From the IMG/VR virus record IMGVR_UViG_3300049489_001027, positions 1 to 39,995 of that record: a stretch of DNA of 39,995 nt, one strand, 5' to 3'. The translations under genes were made by a program, and so were the position numbers. Below are positions 5,314 through 19,182 of this stretch, piece after piece. Numbering within the stretch: position 1 is the first letter of the stretch; each line of letters opens with the position of its first letter. Source of the stretch: a virus. The notes beneath the pieces are model-generated. The model worked only from the letters and a program-made list of their open reading frames with translations. It was not told the origin of the DNA and made no database searches.

Positions 5314-6120
5314 ATGCGAGACGGTAGGATACATATTGGCGACGAAGTGTATCATTGCCGAGTCGTTGAGTCTGATGCTGAACGGCGTCGTGGCCTGCAG
5401 GACATGCCAAAGTTGGCTCAAGGTGAGGGGATGCTATTTCCTATACCACCTAGGGCTAGCGCTGCGTTTCATATGGGTTCAGTGTCCTATCCTATTGACC
5501 TTATTTTTATTTCGGCCGGTAAAGTCGTAAAAATTGTACATAACGCGCAGCCCGGATCGAATGACACATGGTCACATCCAACCTGTGATTATGTTTTAGA
5601 AGTTCTTGGCGGAAGTGCCTTAGGAGCACTAAACAAGGATGCTGTCGTTGATTACATTATTACAATTCCGAATGAACTAGACAATCCAACAACGGTCCCT
5701 GCATACGAACGCTATCAACACGCAGACCCAATGTTAGGTCCACTCGTCGATCAGCATGATTCCAAATATGTCCGTTGGGAGCTCGGCAAAGATCCAATCA
5801 CGCAGGATGAGGTTGAACCGTTAAAGCATGCCGTGGCAGATGATGCCATTAGTTCACTCAGCCGACATCTTAATTGGCGTCGTGACGCCCTTCGCGGTGA
5901 TTTGATGTCTGCACTCGTCCTTGATGATGACATTGCTGAGTGGATCGCTGGTATGGCGCTACCGACTGAAGAGGCGACGCATGCTTTTGATTACTACTCT
6001 CGGCGTGAGGGGCTGGCTGAATTAGCTGAGGCGTTTGTACTGCAGGGTGTTGCAAGTGCTACCAACATAGGCGTTACTCCGGCAGGCGATGTGTCTCTAG
6101 TCCTTTGGAGGAAATTTTAA
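5314..6120 (+). CDS. DUF192 domain protein with extra C-terminal domain
   Basis: Residues about 1-105 match the DUF192 family pattern (PF02643): an early segment RRRGLQDMPKLAQGEGMLF, then AFHMGSVSYPIDLIFI, then KIVHNAQPGSNDTW and YVLEVLGGSA. Typical family members read GLxxRxxLPxxxGMLF, then FWMKNTxIPLDIxFID, then NxxPxS and VLExxAG, so all four blocks are present. Bacterial DUF192 proteins are usually secreted or membrane-attached and of unknown biochemical function. This one has no signal peptide and carries about 160 further residues, helical and acidic, not seen in the plain family. Its place between the candidate small terminase and the large terminase suggests a role in head assembly or packaging; that is inference. 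It starts three bases after the upstream stop. Confidence 0.8.
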   Translation: MRDGRIHIGDEVYHCRVVESDAERRRGLQDMPKLAQGEGMLFPIPPRASAAFHMGSVSYPIDLIFISAGKVVKIVHNAQPGSNDTWSHPTCDYVLEVLGGSALGALNKDAVVDYIITIPNELDNPTTVPAYERYQHADPMLGPLVDQHDSKYVRWELGKDPITQDEVEPLKHAVADDAISSLSRHLNWRRDALRGDLMSALVLDDDIAEWIAGMALPTEEATHAFDYYSRREGLAELAEAFVLQGVASATNIGVTPAGDVSLVLWRKF

Positions 6121-6722
6121 TGAATCCAATTCCGATTGGTCAGGACCAAGTTGCAGTTCTCGCCGTTCAAATGGCGCGTGCCGCGCTGGGCGACTTTAAC
6201 ATGCTTGGGAGTCAAGTTGAGATACGTTATATCGCAACACACGACGTACGTCCCCATAAGGTGGCTTGGGTTCACGCACGCATTCGGAGCTTGAGTGGAA
6301 TTAAGCAGAGCATTGATATTCCCATGATCATTCGCGATGGTGTTATATACCCGCCTGAGTTGTTCATGCATGATGGGCAGCCGCGAATTTTGGCACAATC
6401 GAGTTTTGATGATGTAGTTAAGGCTGCGACCCTGTGGCGCACGCCTCCAGATCGGCGCCATTGGTATCAACTACCATCAGCGCTAAAAATGCCTGAACAG
6501 ACCCAGGTTCCGTTAGTCAGTGAAGGCATTTTTGGACGTTGCGCACAACAAGACCCGCATAAAATGATTGGGGGCTTAGAGGCAGTACTCACAACATTGT
6601 TGTCGAACCTTGATTCTATTATTCCATTACTTGAGGCAGAGCCACAACTTGCGAGAACTCTGCTTCAAAGATATATTGGTGATGCGCGGGCTGGTGTTGC
6701 ACGAGTCACCAATGGAAAGTGA
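6120..6722 (+). CDS. Phage protein of unknown function upstream of the large terminase
   Basis: A 200-residue protein. GGAGGA at 6107-6112 lies seven bases before the ATG at 6120, and the ATG shares its A with the upstream TAA stop (TAATG), so this start is well supported; a TTG at 6105 would place the ribosome binding site inside the gene. The product is mixed alpha/beta, with a beta-rich region at about 35-80 (VEIRYIATHDVRPHKVAWVH) and a helical C-terminus at about 145-195. No motif, signal peptide or membrane segment is visible and I do not recognise the family. It overlaps the start of the terminase gene, so packaging or head assembly is the natural guess. Confidence 0.8.
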   Translation: MNPIPIGQDQVAVLAVQMARAALGDFNMLGSQVEIRYIATHDVRPHKVAWVHARIRSLSGIKQSIDIPMIIRDGVIYPPELFMHDGQPRILAQSSFDDVVKAATLWRTPPDRRHWYQLPSALKMPEQTQVPLVSEGIFGRCAQQDPHKMIGGLEAVLTTLLSNLDSIIPLLEAEPQLARTLLQRYIGDARAGVARVTNGK

Positions 6723-8769
6723 TGAGCTATTTTCATTTGATTTCACTGAGGCGATCAAGGCATCGCTGAGTGGTGGTGGAGTCAAATCGGCCAACAGCAC
6801 AGACTCTGAGCGTGCTTATCTCAAAGTTCCTGCTCCAAATGTGATTCAATGGGTTGTCGATCGTGAATATTTGAATTCGCCCTCATTGTATGAGTACACG
6901 AGATGCTATCAAGTAATCAGGGACGTGTTTCAGCTTCGATGTCCAAACTGTAATGCGCAAGACCCTTCAGCGGTCGATTGTTGGAACAAGTCCAAGGACT
7001 ACTTGCAAAGCGAATGCCTACTAGAATGGTCAGCAGACCACGACGATGACGTGTGCCCTAAGTGCCGGCATACTCGAACGGATTTCATCATCGACGGAAA
7101 ATTTCAACGCATCAACCAAATGCATCTTGTTTGCGGGCAGCGCGCAGGAAAATCAATCACGGCGGCTCTGGCAGGCACGTTTATTGAGCACCGTCTCATT
7201 ACGATCGGTCTGTCCCATCCGGGCGGGTTGCGCGGTTATTTAGGGTTAACTGTCAGTGATCCGATAGAAATGGGTTTTTTAGCGTCTAACGAAGCCCAAA
7301 GTAAGGATACTATTTGGGCCAAGTTTTTGGCATTTCGTCGAGATAGTCCATGGTTCCGTCGATTTGTGCCTTGGGTTAAGGATCAGCAACGGCTGCAAGC
7401 AATGCCCGAAGGCATGAAACGCTGGGAATACGATGAGTCAAACCAAAAGATCCTTAACGAACATCCTGATATTTTCATCATCCTCAAGAGTCAAAATAGT
7501 AACTCCTCAGGCTTGCGTGGATGCACTCGTATATTCGGTGGATTAGATGAAATTGCGTTTATGATGGACGGCGAAAGTCGTATTTCAGCCGATGAAATTT
7601 ATCGCGCGGTGAATAATAGTTTAGTGACAGTTCGGTCTCGCGCTAAGCTACACAATAGACCACCATGGTTAGGCTTGTTGTGTAGTGTCTCGAGTCCACG
7701 TCACAAAGATGACAAGGCCATGCGCCTATTACGCACCGCACCGCAGACAGAGGGCATGGTGGCGTATCATTACGCGACTTGGGAATTTAATCCATATGAG
7801 CCTCGAGCTAATTTCGATGACGAGTACGCAAAAGACCCAGTAGGTGCAGAACGTGACTTCGGCGCGCGTCCGCCGCTTACGAGTCATCCACTTATCCAAG
7901 ACGTTGCTCGTTGGAGAACTTCGGTAATCAGTACCGGGCTTACACCCACAGCGCACTTCAACTACGACATTTTTAGTCAAGACGGACGAGATTATGTCGG
8001 CGTTGAAGTGCAGACCGCTTGGCTCCAAACAAATGGTGCGCGCTTTGTCGCTTTCGACGCAGGCAAGAGCTTCGACGCGTTCGCCGGCGCGTGTGCGCAC
8101 GCTGAAATACTTGTCGATGAAGTTACTGGTGCGCAGCGAGTAATTACTGTGTTTGATTGGGTCATACGAATACTGCCTGCAGTCGGGACGGAAGTTTACT
8201 ACGAATCAGTCTTTAACGTGTTACAGGCACTTCGACAGAAACACAACATTATTCGTTGCGAATTCGATCGGTGGAACGCGACGCACTTAATACAACAAGT
8301 TCGAAGACTTGGAGTTCATTGCGAGGAAGTAAATAACAAAAACGAGGATTATATTAGATTCCGCGCTGACGCATTTAACGGCCTTGTTAAAATGTTACCT
8401 CCATCAGCCGAGGACATGAATGAAGCAGGAGAATGGATAATTGATCCACCATACATGTCCGCAGAATCTTGTGCGTTGTACGAAATTGAAGTTCTTGAAG
8501 AGGATCCAGAGACGCGCAAGGTCTTTAATCCACGCAAAGGGGAACAAAGGGGGTGGAACAGCAATGACGTTGCAGAAGTAGTGGTCCACGCGCACAAAAT
8601 GGTCCAAGAATCTGGCTATACAAAGCGAGAAGGGACTAACTCAAAGGACGACGTGCGTAAACGAAGCGAGGCGGACGCAGTTCGTTACAGCACTGCTAAA
8701 CAAGGTGGTGTTTTTAGTCCTGGTCGGTTTATGCTAGGTAAGGGCCCTCGGTCCGGAAGAGGTTGGTAA
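6712..8769 (+). CDS. terL: Terminase large subunit (ATPase-nuclease) with zinc-ribbon insertion
   Basis: The DNA packaging motor: an ATPase that pumps DNA through the portal plus a nuclease that cuts concatemers. With the ATG at 6712 the protein has 685 residues. Walker A is GQRAGKS at 142-148 and Walker B is GGLDE, with D279 and E280. CSVSSP after it fits the coupling motif. The RNase H-like nuclease shows D449 (FDAGKS), D519 (FDRWN) and D619 (NDVAEVV) as the three expected acidic residues. An unusual feature is a zinc ribbon of C77, C80, C115 and C118 ahead of the ATPase. An upstream TTG at 6610 is in frame but adds an unconvincing leader inside the previous gene; an ATG at 6682 is possible. 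No intein is present here, unlike in the portal. Confidence 0.95.
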   Translation: MESDELFSFDFTEAIKASLSGGGVKSANSTDSERAYLKVPAPNVIQWVVDREYLNSPSLYEYTRCYQVIRDVFQLRCPNCNAQDPSAVDCWNKSKDYLQSECLLEWSADHDDDVCPKCRHTRTDFIIDGKFQRINQMHLVCGQRAGKSITAALAGTFIEHRLITIGLSHPGGLRGYLGLTVSDPIEMGFLASNEAQSKDTIWAKFLAFRRDSPWFRRFVPWVKDQQRLQAMPEGMKRWEYDESNQKILNEHPDIFIILKSQNSNSSGLRGCTRIFGGLDEIAFMMDGESRISADEIYRAVNNSLVTVRSRAKLHNRPPWLGLLCSVSSPRHKDDKAMRLLRTAPQTEGMVAYHYATWEFNPYEPRANFDDEYAKDPVGAERDFGARPPLTSHPLIQDVARWRTSVISTGLTPTAHFNYDIFSQDGRDYVGVEVQTAWLQTNGARFVAFDAGKSFDAFAGACAHAEILVDEVTGAQRVITVFDWVIRILPAVGTEVYYESVFNVLQALRQKHNIIRCEFDRWNATHLIQQVRRLGVHCEEVNNKNEDYIRFRADAFNGLVKMLPPSAEDMNEAGEWIIDPPYMSAESCALYEIEVLEEDPETRKVFNPRKGEQRGWNSNDVAEVVVHAHKMVQESGYTKREGTNSKDDVRKRSEADAVRYSTAKQGGVFSPGRFMLGKGPRSGRGW

Positions 8770-9749
8770 TGTCAATTGATCCAGTCAAAGAACCAAAGTT
8801 ACTTAAACAGCCAGGTAAGATGGATTCTCAAGATACCAATTTCCCGGCGAGAGAGCTTGAACCAGGACGTGAGAGTGCAGATCCTATGCCTGAGCGATGG
8901 ACAGCAGACCTGTTGCCGGGCGGCAAGGGAGATGACATTTCTGACGATAACTTTGATCCAGATCAGCTGCAAGAAGGTATATTACATGAGCTTGAACATA
9001 CTCCTAATGTATTGCTCGCCAAGGAGATTGCCAAAGACCATCTAACGGAAGATCCTGAATACTATACAAAGCTGCGCCAAATTGAAGGCGAGCTAGGTAA
9101 CAGCCTCGACGATTTAACCATTACACAGGTTATCAATCCGCATACAACACCAATTAATATGTACCGTGAGTGGTCTGAGTCCTACCACGATTGGAATGTG
9201 CATGAGGGGCCACGCGACAAATTAGGAATGGCTGCGCGCGTCCCAGAAGACTTACCCGCCGATTGGTCATTCAGGGTTGAACAGGATGACGACGCCTTGA
9301 TTGTTAGCCTGATTGACCCGACTAGACCTAAACCGGTTGCCGGCATAACCGTTGATAAGAGCACCAATGAAGTGTCGTATTCGTATTCAGATATACCTGG
9401 ATGGGGTCCGCTTATGTATGAGGTCGCCATGGAAATGCGAACTGAGCAGGGTGCAGGCATTCGAAGCGACCTCTGGAACGTAAGTGATGCCGCTCGTCGA
9501 GTGTGGCAGCGCTTTTATGTACGGCCGGACGTTCAGCGAAGTCCTTCAGACGCCCCAAAACATGGTGATCCAGCGCTGCAGTATCAATATACAAAACCTC
9601 GAGAGCGTCTTACACAACTCGAAGAACAACAACAGATCCAGTATACCGGCGTTGCGCTGATAGATTGGGAGCAATATGACTGGACAGACCCTACGTACAC
9701 ACGCAAAGATAGAAGTATTAAGGTCTTGCCTCCGGAGAATGCTCAATGA
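8769..9749 (+). CDS. DUF5661-like phage protein with GNAT-like C-terminal domain
   Basis: A 326-residue protein. The ATG at 8769 overlaps the terminase stop (TAATG). The first 75 residues are polar and probably disordered. A motif of the form EHTPNVLLAKEIAKDHLTED followed by PEYYTKL (about 75-105) matches what I recall as DUF5661, a short helical domain common in phage structural regions. Residues about 200-255 (GWGPLMYEVAMEM, then GAGIRSDLWNVSDAARRVW) resemble a domain seen in many phage proteins that looks like part of an acetyltransferase-type fold; whether it is enzymatic is unknown. The gene stop overlaps the portal ATG and it sits between terminase and portal, so a portal-associated or head role is likely by position. 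Both domain names are from memory. Confidence 0.8.
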   Translation: MSIDPVKEPKLLKQPGKMDSQDTNFPARELEPGRESADPMPERWTADLLPGGKGDDISDDNFDPDQLQEGILHELEHTPNVLLAKEIAKDHLTEDPEYYTKLRQIEGELGNSLDDLTITQVINPHTTPINMYREWSESYHDWNVHEGPRDKLGMAARVPEDLPADWSFRVEQDDDALIVSLIDPTRPKPVAGITVDKSTNEVSYSYSDIPGWGPLMYEVAMEMRTEQGAGIRSDLWNVSDAARRVWQRFYVRPDVQRSPSDAPKHGDPALQYQYTKPRERLTQLEEQQQIQYTGVALIDWEQYDWTDPTYTRKDRSIKVLPPENAQ

Positions 9750-12700
9750 GTCGCATAAAAATATACGACAAATATGCCAGCATAAAAAAGCACGCTGATG
9801 AAAGCGAAGCACATGGCTTACAGGGCGACACCATCGAGCGCTTGGCCGAACGTTTTGAGAAATTTGTGCCGAAGATGGCAGGTGTCCGCGCGAATACCGT
9901 TACGGAAATGGACAAAATACTTCCAAAGAATGCCAGTTGGAGTCCTGAAGCGTTTTCAAAGCGCGGCAATGTTCCGGGCGGCGTTTCGATGGGAGGCAAT
10001 ACCTTTCATACCAATCAGCGTCCATATGACCCCGCGTTCGAAAGCCCTGATCGTCAAATGTATCCAGTGCATCGCATCTTGGCGAATCGATATTGGCGCC
10101 TGTTTTACAAACTTGACCCTGTCATCGGCACGGCCGTTGATCTTCGAAGTGAGCTGATGTGGGGTAATTTCACGCTTAGTGGGGAAGGCATTGATGGGGA
10201 GGTAAAAGATACTTTGGAGTATATGGTTGAAGAAACCAAGCTTCGAACCATGCTGCCCTATCTAAATCGTGAATATGATGTCGTCGGTGAAGTTGCGCCA
10301 CATTTGTTTTTTGATGACGCAAAAGGGATTTGGACGCACTTAACGCTGCTTAATCCAGACCAGCTTGAAATTATTGATGCGCCATTTATCCGCATGGAAC
10401 CTATCGCAGAGTTCGTGCCGGATGATCGCTTGTACGAGGTACTTACAAGCAATAACGTTCTGCTTCGACAAGTTCGTGACACTATGCCAGCTGAACTTGT
10501 TAGTCGATTAATGTCGCGGCAAAACATTCCGTTGTTGCCAACAAACTTCACGTTTATTCCACGTAAACTGCACCCATATGACGTTCGAGGGACGAGTATC
10601 ATTAGCCGAATGTGGCGCATATTAATGTATGAAGACTGCTTCCGTGCAGGTACCATGGTCTCGCTGGCCGACGGTAGTTCAAAACCAATTGAACAGGTCT
10701 GTGTTGGCGACAAGGTGTTAGATCGGTTAGGGTACGAACAAATTGTAACCGCCTCAGTTGAGAAATCACCACAAAAACTCTATGAGATCAAGCTATTTGG
10801 AGGAGTTACGCTTGCTGCGACTGCTACTCACCGATGGCCTGTTTGGGCCTATCCACGCACGTGTCAATGTGGCTGCGGTGAAGATGTTAACAAATTTAAG
10901 AGCTTCAAAGCTACGCATGTTGCAAAGAACGCTGAGATAACTTGGAAAACATATGGCAATGCATCAGATTCTAGATGGAGTCGTTGCCGTCTCCCGTCTG
11001 CATACAATCCTTATCAAAAAATAGAGACAAAAGACCTGAAAGTCGAAGATTATTTATTGGTCCCAAGAAAATTTGATGTTAGGGAAACTGACGCTACGCC
11101 GGACTACGCACGATTACTTGGATATTATTTGGCTGAAGGTTCAATAAGCCAGCTGTCAAATGAGGAAAAAGTCGGCGTGCATTTCGATTTTCATATCAAT
11201 GAGAAGGAAACTTACGCTAAGGACGTCGTCGATATCTGCGCAAAACTCGGCGTCGTTGCGCAGATTTATGACAATGCCGCACGAAATGCGTGCACTGTAA
11301 CTGTGCATAAATACGAATATTCGTGGTTGGCTGAAAAGTTATCCGCTGATGCTGGGCGATTTTCGCACGCCAAGCAACTGTCCGCCGAGGTGATATCCTG
11401 GCCCGTCAGACTAAAGCGTGAGCTTTTAATTGGTTACTGGCGCGGCGATGGGAGTAAAACAATACGTTTAGTGCCGACTCGTTCCATCTCGTTGTCATGG
11501 ATGACAGTTTCAGAACAGCTAGCAAGCCAATTGTGGTTAGTTTGCGCACAGGTGGGCTGGCCTGTCACGTCTAAGACCATCACTCGACATAGATGTAAAG
11601 ACGGCCGTAATCGAAAACTGCGTCACGAGATGACTATTAAAGGTCCGTTGGTTGACGAGGTGATAAAAGCAACTTATGGAATCGTCATCGAACGAAGTGT
11701 AGATTCAAACGCCTGGTCTAAAGTATGGTTAGACGATGACTTCGTTTATTATCCTATCAAAGCTATAACGAAGCTTGAAGATGAAGAGCCTGTTTTTGGT
11801 CTCACCGTCAGTGGAGACCACAGCTATATTGCTAATGGCCTTGGAACTTATAATAGCATATTCAATGCGAGTATTGCCACCGCTCGGCGTGCATCGGCCC
11901 CATTAAAGGTTGCGAAGTTAGGAAATCCAGCGAGTGGCTGGATACCTGACCCTGACAACGAACGGCGCTTGCTTGAGCTACTAGCACAAGCTGAGCTAGA
12001 CCCACAGTGTTTTACGCCAGAGACGTTAGTTACGCTAGGTGACGGTACACATCGACAGATTGGTAACATTAAGCCAGGTGATGTTGTGCTTGATCGAAAT
12101 GGCCATCCATCTGAAGTCGCTGACGTCTATGACGAGTTAACACATGATTTAGTGCGAATTACGCTCGCTGGCGGGGAGGAATTTGACTGTACGCCAAATC
12201 ATGCATGGCCTGTATTTGGCTCGCCAAGAGTGTGTCAATGTGGATGCGATACACCAATTAGCCAAGGTAACTTCGCGCCGTTTCATGCGGGCGGTAAGCC
12301 TGGGATTCAATACTGGCGACATCCCAATGCACCGCGCAAAATAAAAGATGTCCAATTTAGATTCTTGAAGGACTTTGACCCAAATCAACGTTTAGCGGCA
12401 AAAGATATCCGTCCTGGTGACTTCCTCAAGATGCCACGTAGCTTTAAGGAGCGCGCTCCTACATGTACAGAAGATCAAGCTTGGCTCTTGGGACTTTACG
12501 CTGCCGAGGGCAACATTGTTAATACTTATTTGCGTGAAGACGGAACCGTACGTCTTGGTGTTGAATGGTCACTCAATGCTGCTGAAACGCACTTAGCTGA
12601 TCGTATCGATACAATCCTTGGGCGCAAAATTAGTAGGTTTTTTAATCGCGAACATAATCTTCAAGTGTGCGCCCGAACAAATGGCGATACAGGTATAGCA

Positions 12701-14224
12701 ACTTGGCTCGCTAAACATGCGGGTACTGGAGCACGAGACAAGTCCTTATCGGTTGAGGTCATGCAATGGCCCCTCACCCATAAATTAGCATTTCTTGAGG
12801 GGTATGTCGCAGGTGACGGTGCGGCTGTAATAGTGAACAGCGGCAGGGCGGTGATTGAGGTCAGTTCCGCTTCGTTACAACTAATACGACAGGTTAAACA
12901 AATTATTACGCAGCTTGGTTCACTCGCGAGCTTCGAAGAACACTCACAACCAATCAATTCATTTGGCCACGGCAACACGATTTATCGACTTCAAATATAT
13001 GGAGAATTAGCAGCGGACCTTGCGATTAACGCAAAAAACGTTGATGCAATAAGGCCAAAAAGGCATAAATCATTCTCTTGGTCCGATGAAAATTATGTTT
13101 ATGCGCGCGTATTGAAAGTAGAACAGCTGCACTTCGCCGAGCCAAAGCGTGTAGTAAATCTCTCAGTTCATGGCGATCATAGTTATCAAGTTTGTGGAGT
13201 CGGTACTTATAATAGCTGGCTTTGTTACCACTACGGCGTTCAGTTTGAACTAGTTGGTGACCCTGGGCGCGTCATGACAATTGATAAGCATTGGGATCTT
13301 ATTGAGCGCGTCAAAATGGTCGCAATGGGTATATCGAAATCTTTTGTTCATGGCGAAGTTAGTTACGCGAGTGCTGCAACTGGCCTAACTGTATTTTTGC
13401 AGTCACTTAAGGCGCGTCGACAGATGTTTGAGGCGCAATGGCTGATGCCAAAGTTTTTCAAGCCGGTATCCGTCATCAACAAATGGGTCAAGCCAAGTCA
13501 GGCAGAGCTTAGCCATCGCGTACGCGTTCGAAGGTCACACCGCGAGCTCCTTGAGGACAAACGCTACATCATGCCTACGTTGACTTGGGATCGTACTTTG
13601 GATCCAAGTATTGACGCGGAAATGATCCGTGCGATGCAGGCATTGCAACAATTGGGGATCAAGTTCAGCCCGTCAACGCTCATGTCTACCGTGCATCGCG
13701 ACTTCCAAGAAGAAATACAGCAGCTTGCGAGAGACGGGGAGCACATGAAAAAGATGTATGGTGAGCATCCTGAGCTCGCATTCTCGATGGGGTCACAAGG
13801 GCCCGGTGGCAATAACACAGTTATGGCACCTCCATTGCCAGGTATTCCGCCCGAGCAGTTTGGTGACGCGCCGGCGCCTGAGCCTGCAGCAGCTCCTGAA
13901 GCGCCTGTGTCAAGTATTTGGAATGAAGAAGGCAAATACGGCTGTTGGCACCAATCAGACCTGCAAGACTTAATAAGCTTAATGCATGGTGGGGACGTTG
14001 ATAGCGAACCGTGGAGTGACCTAGCCAAAGATCCGCGTGTACAAGTCGCAATTCAGCAAGACGATCACGCGCAAGTTTGGAGTGCGATTGAAGGCTGGAT
14101 GACTGACCATGATTATCCTGCGCGTGACATTATCGATCTTGAGGACATACTGAAGCATTATGGTGTAGTGCGATCGGCGACGTTCGAAGATCTCGAAAAA
14201 TTAATTGACGGCCCTATTGTGTAA
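9746..14224 (+). CDS. Portal protein precursor containing two inteins
   Basis: The portal is the dodecameric ring at one capsid vertex through which terminase pumps DNA. The ATG (GGAG at 9734-9737, eight bases upstream) overlaps the previous stop. The frame is 1492 codons; removing two inteins (residues 298-703 and 755-1156) leaves a 684-residue mature protein. The exteins read as portal: RPYDPAFESPDRQMYPVHRI at about 90-110, a FRAG-free junction MYED/SIFNASIATARR, the linker GNPASGWIPDPDNE, and WLCYHYGVQFELVGDP to FLQSLKARRQMFEAQW. After a Pro-rich linker (about residues 1350-1395) a C-terminal helical domain follows, the last 95 or so residues. No upstream or downstream frameshift interrupts the frame, so splicing at protein level is expected. 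The portal call comes from location, size after splicing and extein sequence similarity that I recognise. Confidence 0.92.
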   Translation: MSRIKIYDKYASIKKHADESEAHGLQGDTIERLAERFEKFVPKMAGVRANTVTEMDKILPKNASWSPEAFSKRGNVPGGVSMGGNTFHTNQRPYDPAFESPDRQMYPVHRILANRYWRLFYKLDPVIGTAVDLRSELMWGNFTLSGEGIDGEVKDTLEYMVEETKLRTMLPYLNREYDVVGEVAPHLFFDDAKGIWTHLTLLNPDQLEIIDAPFIRMEPIAEFVPDDRLYEVLTSNNVLLRQVRDTMPAELVSRLMSRQNIPLLPTNFTFIPRKLHPYDVRGTSIISRMWRILMYEDCFRAGTMVSLADGSSKPIEQVCVGDKVLDRLGYEQIVTASVEKSPQKLYEIKLFGGVTLAATATHRWPVWAYPRTCQCGCGEDVNKFKSFKATHVAKNAEITWKTYGNASDSRWSRCRLPSAYNPYQKIETKDLKVEDYLLVPRKFDVRETDATPDYARLLGYYLAEGSISQLSNEEKVGVHFDFHINEKETYAKDVVDICAKLGVVAQIYDNAARNACTVTVHKYEYSWLAEKLSADAGRFSHAKQLSAEVISWPVRLKRELLIGYWRGDGSKTIRLVPTRSISLSWMTVSEQLASQLWLVCAQVGWPVTSKTITRHRCKDGRNRKLRHEMTIKGPLVDEVIKATYGIVIERSVDSNAWSKVWLDDDFVYYPIKAITKLEDEEPVFGLTVSGDHSYIANGLGTYNSIFNASIATARRASAPLKVAKLGNPASGWIPDPDNERRLLELLAQAELDPQCFTPETLVTLGDGTHRQIGNIKPGDVVLDRNGHPSEVADVYDELTHDLVRITLAGGEEFDCTPNHAWPVFGSPRVCQCGCDTPISQGNFAPFHAGGKPGIQYWRHPNAPRKIKDVQFRFLKDFDPNQRLAAKDIRPGDFLKMPRSFKERAPTCTEDQAWLLGLYAAEGNIVNTYLREDGTVRLGVEWSLNAAETHLADRIDTILGRKISRFFNREHNLQVCARTNGDTGIATWLAKHAGTGARDKSLSVEVMQWPLTHKLAFLEGYVAGDGAAVIVNSGRAVIEVSSASLQLIRQVKQIITQLGSLASFEEHSQPINSFGHGNTIYRLQIYGELAADLAINAKNVDAIRPKRHKSFSWSDENYVYARVLKVEQLHFAEPKRVVNLSVHGDHSYQVCGVGTYNSWLCYHYGVQFELVGDPGRVMTIDKHWDLIERVKMVAMGISKSFVHGEVSYASAATGLTVFLQSLKARRQMFEAQWLMPKFFKPVSVINKWVKPSQAELSHRVRVRRSHRELLEDKRYIMPTLTWDRTLDPSIDAEMIRAMQALQQLGIKFSPSTLMSTVHRDFQEEIQQLARDGEHMKKMYGEHPELAFSMGSQGPGGNNTVMAPPLPGIPPEQFGDAPAPEPAAAPEAPVSSIWNEEGKYGCWHQSDLQDLISLMHGGDVDSEPWSDLAKDPRVQVAIQQDDHAQVWSAIEGWMTDHDYPARDIIDLEDILKHYGVVRSATFEDLEKLIDGPIV
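10637..11854 (+). mobile_element. Intein 1 in the portal gene, with LAGLIDADG-type homing endonuclease
   Basis: A 406-residue in-frame intein (portal residues 298-703). It begins with Cys at 10637 in block A (CFRAGTMVSLADGSSKPIEQ), has a TxxH block B (TATHRWPV), and ends with block F (FGLTVSGDHSYIANG) and block G (LGTYN), followed by Ser as +1 residue at 11855. Two dodecapeptide motifs, LLGYYLAEG (11114-11140) and LLIGYWRGDG (11423-11452), mark a LAGLIDADG homing endonuclease. A CQCGCG cluster lies at 10862-10876. The penultimate residue is Tyr rather than the usual His. Excision would join Asp of MYED to Ser of SIFNAS. Boundaries are read from motifs, with high confidence at both ends. Confidence 0.93.
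12008..13213 (+). mobile_element. Intein 2 in the portal gene, with LAGLIDADG-type homing endonuclease
   Basis: A 402-residue in-frame intein (portal residues 755-1156), inserted only 51 extein residues after intein 1. Block A starts with Cys at 12008 (CFTPETLVTLGDGTHRQIGN), block B is CTPNHAWPV (TxxH), block F is VNLSVHGDHSYQVCG and block G is VGTYN, followed by Ser at 13214. Dodecapeptides LLGLYAAEG (12485-12511) and FLEGYVAGDG (12791-12820) indicate an intact-looking LAGLIDADG endonuclease. It shares with intein 1 the CQCGC cluster (12233-12247), the segment preceding the endonuclease, and Tyr in the penultimate position, so the two are paralogous. Excision joins DPQ to SWLCYHYG. Confidence 0.93.
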
Positions 14225-14255: not shown

Positions 14256-14330
14256 ATGGCCTTTAAAAAGGTTGGGAAGGGTAAGTCGCTAGGCGTCATA
14301 TTGCCTCAGCCTGAAGGTCCTAAAAAATAA
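14256..14330 (+). CDS. 24-residue basic peptide ORF
   Basis: A very short ORF between the portal and protease genes, encoding a Lys/Gly-rich peptide beginning MAFKKVGKGKSLGV and ending PQPEGPKK. Its stop overlaps the ATG of the protease gene (TAATG), the same junction used elsewhere in this operon, and it occupies most of the 105-base gap after the portal stop. There is no strong ribosome binding site. Small basic peptides in this place are familiar in large phages, but I have no function for it; it may mainly couple translation to the downstream gene. Confidence 0.5.
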   Translation: MAFKKVGKGKSLGVILPQPEGPKK

Positions 14331-17230
14331 TGTTTACGAAGTTCGCAAATGTCGTGCCGCTTGGTACGCTTGAGCTGCGTGACAATACTATTACGCGCGT
14401 TGCTGGAATCGAACGCAGCTACTACCTAGATGGTAGCTCGAAGTTGCCGATCAAAGAGATGCTTGCAACTGCAGCATCAAAATACGCGATTAGTGATAAC
14501 CCAAATGATTATATCTATGAGGCCATTCGTGCAAATACGGCAAATGTGCCGAACGATAATCATGACGGATTCTGGCGTGACGAACTGTTGCGCTTTGACG
14601 TACGGCAGCAACAACCAGTGTACGCGACCTATCGCGGAAAGCCCCATCATGTTAATCATCGCGCAGAGAATCCTTTAACGGCGCGCGGCGTCATTTTGGA
14701 CGCTACGTATAACGAATCTGCCGGAGCCCTAGACGTGTGTCCAGGCTGCTCAGCGCCGACGAAAGAAAAGTCTGCACGCGACGCGACTGGAATTCATTGC
14801 GCGCGTTGTGGCGCTACTGTAAAGGATGAGTTTGTTGAAATCTTGCTAGCAGTAGATCGAAAGAAAGATCCGATCTTTGCTGAGGGCGTCAGAACTGGTC
14901 TGTTGCGGTTTGGAAGTATGGGGTGTAGTTGTGAAGCTACACAATGCAACGTGTGCCAGCATGTTGCGAGCTCGCAGGTGGAATTCTGTGAGCACATAAG
15001 ATACGGTAACAAAGGCACCTATTGGGTTCGTGACAATGGTAAATGGGAACGTATTGCCGAGCCGGCATTGCGTAAACGCTTGGCAGAGGTCGGTTTGGAG
15101 ATGACGGATGATTTTGTTGCGATGCATAGCGAAGATCAAAAATTCGAAGCGCGCAAATCATTTGAGCGTTGTCTTGGTGTCACCTATGACGAATACAGTC
15201 GAGTCGATGAACCGGCCGACCGCAAAGCTGAACAATACGAAATACTCAACAAGGCAGCAGAACGTCTTCCAACCGAAGATGAATTGGCCTTAGAGTCTCA
15301 GCAAATGATAGCAAGAGCGCGACGGCGCCAAAGGAGAACTGCTATGAAGTACTACATTGTGCGCGTCGATGGAAAGGATATCTACGCAGCTGAATCAGAA
15401 GATGATGCATTGGCGCTTGCTGAAGCTAGTGGTGGTGCGCGAATGGAAATTGGCGAAGTGGAAGCTTTGAGCGCTGAGACCGCCCGCGAGATGCAACCTG
15501 CCGCATGGAGAACAGCGCAATTTGCGCAACCAGACTACTCGGAATTGCCTGAAGGCACTAAAGAAAGGACGGAGCAACAACGTGCAGTCAATCGGCAAGA
15601 TGCATTGGACGCGTCAATTCGTCGCGTTGAGAAGCTCGAATCAGATTTAGAATATAAGCGCGTTCCTCCAGATAAAATGGAACAAGTTCTTGAAGAACTT
15701 CGAGAGCTAAAAGAAGAGTTTATTCCATCGCTTGAAGCACACGCACCTAAAACTGCCGATGACGTCGGCTCGCCGAAAGAACCAGGTATTGAAGAATATG
15801 TAGACCAAAAGCTCGTGCCGACACTTGGTAATGAAGAAGACGGTTACACACCAGAGGAAATGGGAATCATGCCTTCAGCTGAAAAACATGCCGAAAGGTC
15901 TTGGCAAGAATCGTACAACGATTGGCGTGTGCAAGTTTCGCCACGCGGAAACGCTCAAATTGTAGCTGCCGATGGAACGCCTACTCTTGTCATCCGCGCT
16001 GCTGTATCGCCTAAAAATGACGATGATCGATTGGCTTTCGGTCGCGAGATTATTGAACACCTAAAGACCGCAGGGCTGACAGCGACAGCGATTAAATACA
16101 ACGCGCTGTTTTCGCCAAAACTCGCGCAAATGGCCGACAACGCGACGACGGATATGGAAGATTGGCAACATCCAGACATGCCTATTAGCATGACACAAGA
16201 CGGTGGTGCCGACGATATGGAAGACGCCGCAGCGCGCGCCATGCCAGCTAAGAGTCTTACAACTGACGGCGGAGATGATGATCACGCAATACGTGAGGCA
16301 CCAGCTCAAAGTCTTGTTGATGACCACCAACCTGACCACGAAATGCATGAAACTAAGCCGCCCAGCATGATCGAAGATGGCGAACACGCTGACACGCGCC
16401 AACATCGCCCCGAACGAAGCTTGGCAGACAGCCTGTTGGACGGTGGTGCTGATGATATGATTGGTAAGCGTGTGGCAGCGAAAGACGGTAGTGAGTGGCT
16501 TGTTGCCGCTGCTGGCGCGTCTGGTTTCACGCTCGTGAACAAGGAACTGGAACAGCGCAGCGTGACTGCATCATCGTTTGTTGATGAATATCGACTATGT
16601 CTAAAACATGACGATGCGTATGAAAAGCGCCTTCAAAAGATCTATGCGGCCAAGTATGAAAAGCTGAAAGAGGCTCATGCACGGTTAGTGGCTGAGGCTC
16701 AGGGGCGCGCTGTCGAAGAATTTAAACGTTGCTTGCGCATCGCTGCAACACGACATGCGCTTAGCATTGAAGGTTCTCCGCTCAAGGAAGCTTTTGGCAT
16801 CGCGCTATGCAATCCACGAACAGTTGGCTATGATGCCAGCACACGTGAACCTTTAGATTACCGTCCCATTTCGCCTGAATTGGCAGTTAACTTGATTGAG
16901 ACTGCATGGAAGACGGGAGCGGCACAAGAGCTAGAACGGCTCATGACACGTGCGGCTGAACTTGCTAAATCCGGTGCCGAGTACCTCAAGGCGGCTGAGG
17001 CCGACCTATCAAAGATGGCTCACCGGGTACCGCCTGTAACGGCGGCGGGCATGATTGATGATCTCGAACGTGAGGCTGAGGCGCTACGCCAACGTGTCAC
17101 GGCGGGTAATATGGAATTGTCTTCGGCGGTCGGCGTCAGTAGTTCTGGCGATTTGACTTCGAAGATACGTGACGCACTAGGTTCGGTCACTCGAACAGGT
17201 GCATTGGTAAGCCAGTACCGGCAAGTGTAG
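14330..17230 (+). CDS. Putative prohead protease fused to scaffold-like region
   Basis: A 966-residue protein between portal and capsid genes, the usual place for capsid maturation protease and scaffold. Residues about 75-290 look like a prohead protease domain: NHRAENPLTARGVILDA with H110, then RTGLLRFGSMGC with S196, resembling the His and Ser placement of phage head proteases. It is decorated by a zinc ribbon (C137, C140, C157, C160) and a second Cys cluster (C199, C201, C206, C209). From about residue 339 it becomes helical, charged and scaffold-like, with a five-fold acidic repeat at 16178-16458 and further helices to the end. An in-frame ATG at 15344 with a strong AGGAG could yield a separate C-terminal product. 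Assignment of the catalytic pair is inference; zinc-bearing non-catalytic structural protein is the main alternative. Confidence 0.75.
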   Translation: MFTKFANVVPLGTLELRDNTITRVAGIERSYYLDGSSKLPIKEMLATAASKYAISDNPNDYIYEAIRANTANVPNDNHDGFWRDELLRFDVRQQQPVYATYRGKPHHVNHRAENPLTARGVILDATYNESAGALDVCPGCSAPTKEKSARDATGIHCARCGATVKDEFVEILLAVDRKKDPIFAEGVRTGLLRFGSMGCSCEATQCNVCQHVASSQVEFCEHIRYGNKGTYWVRDNGKWERIAEPALRKRLAEVGLEMTDDFVAMHSEDQKFEARKSFERCLGVTYDEYSRVDEPADRKAEQYEILNKAAERLPTEDELALESQQMIARARRRQRRTAMKYYIVRVDGKDIYAAESEDDALALAEASGGARMEIGEVEALSAETAREMQPAAWRTAQFAQPDYSELPEGTKERTEQQRAVNRQDALDASIRRVEKLESDLEYKRVPPDKMEQVLEELRELKEEFIPSLEAHAPKTADDVGSPKEPGIEEYVDQKLVPTLGNEEDGYTPEEMGIMPSAEKHAERSWQESYNDWRVQVSPRGNAQIVAADGTPTLVIRAAVSPKNDDDRLAFGREIIEHLKTAGLTATAIKYNALFSPKLAQMADNATTDMEDWQHPDMPISMTQDGGADDMEDAAARAMPAKSLTTDGGDDDHAIREAPAQSLVDDHQPDHEMHETKPPSMIEDGEHADTRQHRPERSLADSLLDGGADDMIGKRVAAKDGSEWLVAAAGASGFTLVNKELEQRSVTASSFVDEYRLCLKHDDAYEKRLQKIYAAKYEKLKEAHARLVAEAQGRAVEEFKRCLRIAATRHALSIEGSPLKEAFGIALCNPRTVGYDASTREPLDYRPISPELAVNLIETAWKTGAAQELERLMTRAAELAKSGAEYLKAAEADLSKMAHRVPPVTAAGMIDDLEREAEALRQRVTAGNMELSSAVGVSSSGDLTSKIRDALGSVTRTGALVSQYRQV
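15332..15346 (+). promoter_or_regulatory. Internal ribosome binding site and in-frame start
   Basis: AGGAG with a preceding A (15332-15336) lies seven bases before ATG 15344, in frame within the protease-scaffold ORF. Translation from here would give 628 residues beginning MKYYIVRVDGKDIYAAESED, which reads like a natural N-terminus directly after an Arg-rich stretch (RARRRQRR). This signal is stronger than the one at the gene's own start. In phage lambda the scaffold Nu3 is made from an in-frame start inside the protease gene C, so the same arrangement is plausible here. Confidence 0.6.
16178..16458 (+). repeat. Five imperfect acidic repeats in the scaffold region
   Basis: The encoded protein repeats a unit of about 18-21 residues: MPISMTQDGGADD, MPAKSLTTDGGDDD, PAQSLVDDHQPD, PPSMIEDGEHAD and PERSLADSLLDGGADD, each followed by a charged linker. 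The pattern is Pro-x-x-Ser-(Leu/Met) and then an Asp/Gly-rich turn. Similar short spaced motifs in disordered proteins are often docking or cleavage sites; here they might be protease cleavage or capsid-binding sites, which is inference. Confidence 0.7.
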
Positions 17231-18018: not shown

Positions 18019-18030
18019 GAGTGAATGAAT

Positions 18031-19182
18031 ATGTCGACGATTAATCCATATAAAGATCTCGTTGCCCAGAAGAGCCTCAAGGCGGCTTCGCGTGCTGAAG
18101 AGCATGTGGTCGGTGAGGACGGGGCGTACAATCCAACGTCTGCAGGTACGTGGGAAAACGCGCTTCGTGGCGTTGCTGCACAACCAAAAGATCGACTCTT
18201 TTCCAAAGAAGGTGAGTTGAATGCTTGGAACAAAGAAGATGCGCTATACCAAATCGCCCATCTTATGCAGAATGTGACCAAGACAGCTGCATCCAAGAGA
18301 ATTTTTGGACGTGGCGGGCCGATGGACGCTGAAAAGCGTCGCATTGTCGCCGAAGCATTGCGTGACCACGAAGGTCCGGGATTCCGCGTTCTTGGCCAAG
18401 AGTTGCTGCTGCCAATTAAAGACCTCATTGACTATGAAGGTTGGGCACGGAAGATTTTTCGCGTGCGCAAGCTTCAACAAGGTGAGTTTTTTCGTATCGC
18501 ACGCGACGTTCGTTCTGTTGCTTGGATTATTGGCCAAGACGGACAAAGCATTGAGTCGCGCGTTCGAGGCAAATACATTCAGCTTGAAGAGTTTAAAATT
18601 AGTAGCTTCCCTACTGTGGACATCAGCGATGTCTATCAAGTGAACTACGACATCCTGGACCGTGTGCAAGACACTGCGCGTCAGGAGATCGAGCTCAAGG
18701 AAGACGTTCGTGCTCTGGCATTGCTTGATCAAGCTGCTCGTTCGGCCAACGCTGTGACTACGTTTGCGACTTTGGGCGTTGCCGCCTTTGAAGACGTGCA
18801 ATACCAGGTTGAGCGTCATCGTAAGCATGTCGCTAAGTTTTTGATCAATCGACAAGAGCTTGGTGACATCAAGAAGACCATGTCAGCGCAAATTGACCCA
18901 GTGTCTGAGCGCGAGTTGTTGCTTGCTGGTTATATTGGCAAGATCTTCAACGCTGACGTGATTACCGCTGCTGGTACAGGCGTTGAAGAAGTTGTGCCGG
19001 CTGGTACGTTTTATGCGTGCACTGACTCCGATTACCTCGGAGAAATGGGCATTCGTATTGAACTGTTTTCTGAGCCGTTCAACAAGTTCTCTCATATGCA
19101 AACCGTTAAGGGTTGGGCGTTTGTGGAAGAACTTGGATTTGGTATTCCTTCTGCTAGTTCCGTCGCTGTCGGCGAAAAATAA
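18031..19182 (+). CDS. Major capsid protein
   Basis: A 383-residue product from ATG 18031. AGGAG at 18017-18021 is nine bases from this ATG but only three from an alternative ATG at 18025, so the second is preferred. Features suit an HK97-fold capsid protein: a helical N-terminal arm, a long helix segment (LDRVQDTARQEIELKEDVRALA), the stretch SERELLLAGYIGKIFNADVI, and a C-terminal beta/alpha domain (GTFYACTDSDYLGEMGIRIE). Size, location after protease-scaffold and decoration genes, strong translation signal and the hairpin after the stop all agree. The N-terminus is polar and could be trimmed by the prohead protease, though no cleavage site can be fixed from sequence. Confidence 0.85.
   Translation: MSTINPYKDLVAQKSLKAASRAEEHVVGEDGAYNPTSAGTWENALRGVAAQPKDRLFSKEGELNAWNKEDALYQIAHLMQNVTKTAASKRIFGRGGPMDAEKRRIVAEALRDHEGPGFRVLGQELLLPIKDLIDYEGWARKIFRVRKLQQGEFFRIARDVRSVAWIIGQDGQSIESRVRGKYIQLEEFKISSFPTVDISDVYQVNYDILDRVQDTARQEIELKEDVRALALLDQAARSANAVTTFATLGVAAFEDVQYQVERHRKHVAKFLINRQELGDIKKTMSAQIDPVSERELLLAGYIGKIFNADVITAAGTGVEEVVPAGTFYACTDSDYLGEMGIRIELFSEPFNKFSHMQTVKGWAFVEELGFGIPSASSVAVGEK

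Follow-up and report, generated by a model that had tools for sequence, protein, structure and literature searches.

Two inteins of one clade in a phage portal gene, probably acquired separately by homing

An intein is normally catalogued under one gene and a single site. Genes with more than one are on record: DnaB with two inteins (PMC6195587), and MCM with four intein sites and polB with three inteins (PMC10643990). The haloarchaeal MCM helicase gene (sites MCM-a to -d) resembles the portal gene described here in having several nearby sites, often two of them occupied, but it is an archaeal replication gene with four sites, whereas the portal has nine, taken by one intein clade that is also found in TerL, protease and connector genes (PMC10643990). 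Two inteins per head-packaging gene are likewise described for cyanophage Mic1 (PMC7156551) and a crAss-like phage (PMC7886860); both cases concern TerL rather than the portal, and the two Mic1 inteins are of different types. Portal inteins have been reported from mycobacteriophage cluster C1 (PMC5050341), where the available part of the article tabulates six in one cluster without multi-site colonisation, and where some phage inteins lack the penultimate His; the likeness is drawn from their description. The cultured Eggerthella phage LE2-3 (MW679026) also has a portal intein, but at another site, with an HN/C ending and outside the clade considered here. Multi-intein genes and portal inteins are already known, then; what seems to be new is the colonisation of head genes at many sites by a single lineage. 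No report of one intein clade spread over many portal sites was found in the full-text literature, within a scope that takes in few subscription journals.

The window (the whole 39,995-nt stretch of viral DNA analysed) contains a portal precursor gene of 1492 aa at 9746..14224, a single open frame with a PHROG match; this gene, its parts and the packaging and head genes named next are on the plus strand. Its exteins match portal family PHROG 16240 (1.4e-65), and also PHROG 2833, and they are those of a phage portal both by this homology and by their place between TerL (6610..8769, PHROG match) and the genes for the head maturation protease (14330..17230) and the major capsid protein (18025..19182). 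The TerL and protease genes have no intein, and a second pair of family inteins was looked for in the window and is absent. ORFs 5314-6120 and 8763-9749, between or before the packaging genes, have DUF192 and DUF5661 domains; most other window ORFs have no family match.

By alignment to intein-free portals, the precursor divides into an N-extein (portal residues 1-297, 9746..10636), a middle extein of 51 residues (298-348, 11855..12007) and a C-extein (349-684 plus stop, 13214..14224), which join to 684 aa. The portals of L002, L003, L004 and Virus Rctr197k (KX853510) run gap-free across the two junctions in the alignment, their empty sites reading MYED/AIFNASIATARR and DPH/AWLVYHYG. Intein-free homologues with matching junctions (MYED/A or S-IFNAS, and DPH/A-W), which an earlier note on this DNA had suggested looking for, thus exist, and the alignment runs straight through both. 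In the Virus Rctr197k record several genes, including TerL, are given as misc_feature (L006, KX853510.1 46139-52666), and a 6.5-kb misc_feature lies between TerL and portal. An AF2 model of a relative's portal (pLDDT 55) was too poor for mapping intein sites.

Intein 1 (I1, 406 aa, precursor residues 298-703) occupies 10637..11854, at site 297/298 (MYED/S); intein 2 (I2, 402 aa, precursor residues 755-1156) occupies 12008..13213, at site 348/349 (DPQ/SW). Both start with Cys1 and have a block B TxxH (TATH at 10820..10831 in I1, TPNH at 12191..12202 in I2), a CQCGC motif (10862..10876, where the cysteines are possible zinc ligands, and 12233..12247), two LAGLIDADG dodecapeptides with intact acidic residues (LLGYYLAEG, 11114..11140, and LIGYWRGDG, 11426..11452, in I1; LLGLYAAEG, 12485..12511, and LEGYVAGDG, 12794..12820, in I2), and blocks F/G running from GDHSY through the terminal TYN (11813..11854 and 13172..13213), with Ser as the next residue. 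Each is inserted in frame at a place that is empty in homologues, and neither has a frameshift or a lost motif. The earlier note's description of two inteins in the portal gene is therefore borne out, with every length exact (406, 402, 51 and 684 residues) and every motif in place. The features are those of class 1 inteins with LAGLIDADG homing endonucleases, except that the penultimate residue is Tyr in place of the usual but non-obligatory His. As inteins without a penultimate His can splice (PMC5050341), its lack marks a variant and leaves class 1 membership intact.

Profile and structure comparisons agree with this anatomy. The inserts match Pfam LAGLIDADG_3 (1.1e-19), Hom_end_hint (6.4e-12) and Intein_splicing (2.5e-10) and NCBIfam intein_Nterm (2e-8), and a profile built from eight relatives matches solved inteins by sequence. 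An AF2 model of I1 (pLDDT 84, pTM 0.85) finds the PI-SceI and TliVMA inteins (PDB 1ef0, 7qsu) as its best PDB matches (E 4e-17 to 8e-17) and also resembles the I-DmoI fold. PI-SceI and TliVMA share the overall fold of I1, a splicing domain with a LAGLIDADG endonuclease, but are inteins of cellular ATPases only 14-18% identical to it. These intein and endonuclease matches are not due to chance.

Single-protein searches of viral contigs with I1 or I2 gave no relative. Relatives came only from a profile: portals were collected with portal-based patterns, some proved to have inserts at several other positions, and a profile of eight such portal inteins yielded 76 loci in viral contigs. A family search in the genome collection gave only five weak matches. 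In the window's extein numbering (residue before/after), inteins of one clade occupy nine portal positions: 99/100 (L018, L069, L070); 297/298 (I1, L024, L070); 300/301 (L028); 302/303 (L025, L064); 348/349 (I2, L029, L069, L080, and L084, which is cut by a contig end); 390/391 (L070); 396/397 (L027); 399/400 (L064); and 400/401 (L069, L076, L080, L087, L089, and L097 to within a residue). Three family inteins are found in the portals of L069 and L070 and two in those of L064 and L080; the L089 portal also has two, one of them, at 186/187, from outside the clade. The earlier note had thought two inteins in one portal gene unusual; in this virus group they are no rarity. The same clade is present in TerL (sites 222, 297, 651), in the protease (112) and in a connector-like gene (L071). 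Because portal inteins served as seeds for the large searches, sampling may be too thin for inteins of other genes. In three large records (G025, 175 kb; G028, 192 kb; G031, 212 kb) every family match sits in the portal. Along the portal gene the sites are no more clustered than expected by chance (p 0.57), and they are marginally associated with more conserved stretches (p 0.046).

The best reading of these data is that one lineage of inteins in phage head genes has homed repeatedly. A probability of about 0.88 is given to the view that the portal gene acquired its two full-length homing inteins separately, both from one clade that, as far as sampled, inhabits head-module genes. In two trees, a quick one of 85 rows and a careful one of 35, the 27 inteins form a single clade (support 100/99 in the 35-row tree; SH-aLRT 100 in the 85-row tree). 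Its members are unevenly distributed: among the 33 distinct, complete portals that portal-anchored searches yielded, the window not counted, seven have family inteins and 26 are intein-free. Intein presence changes nine times on the portal tree, four times at site 349 alone, where the inteins form a single clade although the portals bearing them are widely separated in that tree. This patchiness suggests mobility, although it could also reflect old inheritance with many losses.

The same distribution bears on a suggestion in the earlier note, that head assembly could be timed by intein activity. Conditional splicing of the precursor as a regulator has some appeal: head assembly requires the portal at an early stage, inteins with Cys1 can respond to redox state or stress (PMC6195587), and the same idea has been proposed for the Mic1 TerL (PMC7156551), although no test of it was found in the available part of that article. 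Nothing in the present data supports it, however. Most related portals do without any intein, the sites vary between viruses, the repeated changes in presence are those expected of mobile elements, and the intact endonuclease motifs point to mobility. Regulation is an unlikely explanation, though individual viruses may still have such a timing role.

It is less likely still that I2 is a duplicate of I1 made within the portal gene. The two resemble each other from end to end (30% identity, E 2e-51) and have their motifs in common, but a sister relation is rejected (AU p = 2.1e-7), which refutes duplication as a recent event, and their nearest relatives differ. I2 falls with the other site-349 inteins, which are monophyletic (100/100) and 40-44% identical to it, while I1 is nearest to the inteins at 301/303 (38-40% identity). 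The repeated invasion proposed in the earlier note thus fits better than duplication. A jump between sites 298 and 349 may have taken place in the distant past, earlier than the origin of the site clades.

Movement between sites and genes is also visible elsewhere in the trees. Three of four tested 401 inteins form a clade with the 400 intein (100/100). The inteins of 298, 301 and 303 as a single clade are not rejected (p 0.42), with weak branch support (31/28); all inteins of sites 391-401 as a single clade are rejected (p 0.004). A grouping of all portal inteins apart from those of TerL and the protease is rejected as well (p 1.4e-4), which means that the lineage has moved from gene to gene. 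On one contig (L075, L097) the TerL 222 intein and the portal 401 intein are sisters (100/99) with 40% identity, which points to such movement within one virus lineage.

The clade has a splicing signature of its own. Its penultimate residue is Tyr in 18 cases, Phe in five, another residue in four and His in none of 27, against His in 50 of 58 inteins outside the clade; the +1 residue is Ser or Thr in 27/27, against Cys in 48/58 outside. A CxCGC motif, often followed by His, has a constant position behind block B in 21 of the 27 and in 12 of the 58 others. It looks like a small zinc site, and the predicted site is perhaps part of DNA recognition. A penultimate Tyr for His could slow or spoil Asn cyclisation; the block F His is kept in 8/8 seed inteins. 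Among the eight relatives T62, H65, D394-Y397 and the LAGLIDADG acids are invariant, and some inteins at the C sites have an altered form of the exact DHSY string.

The +1 residue at sites 298 and 349 is mostly Ala where no intein is present and Ser in every occupied portal: 3/3 occupied vs 2/36 empty at 298 (p 0.0011), and 4/4 occupied vs 5/35 empty (Ser/Thr) at 349 (p 0.0015; both Fisher tests, with portal kinship ignored). Because Ser is needed as the nucleophile, this supports working splicing, and the pattern is a footprint of selection for it. It agrees with MCM-d, where invaded alleles have Ser at +1 and most uninvaded ones Pro (PMC10643990). Several empty sites already have Ser (L011 and L179 at 298; L025, L027, L076 and L089 at 349), which could be a trace of inteins since lost or could mark targets already suited to invasion. 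Purifying selection is seen in two pairs of relatives that share a site, with dN/dS of ~0.07 (dN 0.17, dS 2.3) and ~0.12 (dN 0.30, dS 2.5), dS being near saturation. These estimates cover relatives only; the best relatives of I1 and I2 themselves are no more than 40-44% identical. Degenerate inserts or an assembly artefact, with the 1492-aa protein kept whole, might be suspected in a metagenomic virus record whose inteins lack the penultimate His, but this is the least probable explanation of all, given the relatives at the same two sites on independent contigs, the undamaged frames and motifs, the +1 Ser at occupied sites and the low dN/dS of relatives.

Under repeated homing, the steps envisaged from motifs and phylogeny are as follows. 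Each intein would be translated within the portal precursor and then excise itself by the class 1 route. Cys1 would undergo an acyl shift, transfer to the +1 Ser would follow, and the terminal Asn would cyclise, probably with the block F His standing in for the absent penultimate one; the product would be the 684-aa portal. Each LAGLIDADG endonuclease would cleave portal alleles that lack an intein at its site (297/298 or 348/349), and the intein would be copied into the cut allele during repair. In the longer term the lineage would reach new sites in the portal, and pass between portal, TerL, protease and connector genes. A wider synthesis is tentative, and judged to fall somewhat short of an even chance: one intein lineage specialised on phage head genes would change address within and between them, its endonucleases shifting between adjacent positions (298/301/303; 400/401) and the +1 Ser travelling with the intein, with the portal, TerL, protease and connector genes as a reservoir, hence two or three inteins per portal.

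Alleles with no, one, two and three inteins are all documented. With nine positions in the portal and several in neighbouring genes, and a chemistry signature (no penultimate His, +1 Ser, often CxCGC) shared by a single clade, the group offers a natural system for questions of intein address: how inteins gain a new one, whether the homing of one intein is aided or impeded by another nearby, and how costly two or three rounds of splicing are for a head protein that has to form a ring. For annotation, it should be borne in mind that portals of this group can appear as proteins of 1100-2000 aa.

In the wider intein set, the most populated site is SMG/C of the head protease, of the VHN/C type (L018, L034, L035, L090-L095, L103, L106, L114-L123, L126-L128, L134); L122 and L134 have three inteins within one protease-type ORF. 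Three TerL genes (L034:1-3654, L083:1740-6407, L025:523-4308) have an extra large insert near TerL profile position 156-158, which the family profile matches partly or not at all; those of L034 and L083 contain a family intein besides. In Eggerthella phage LE2-3 (L007:3686-6907 and L007:8850-9773), whose portal intein is of another type, an ORF annotated as a tRNA synthetase looks misannotated, since its start resembles a head protease and it has an intein inside.
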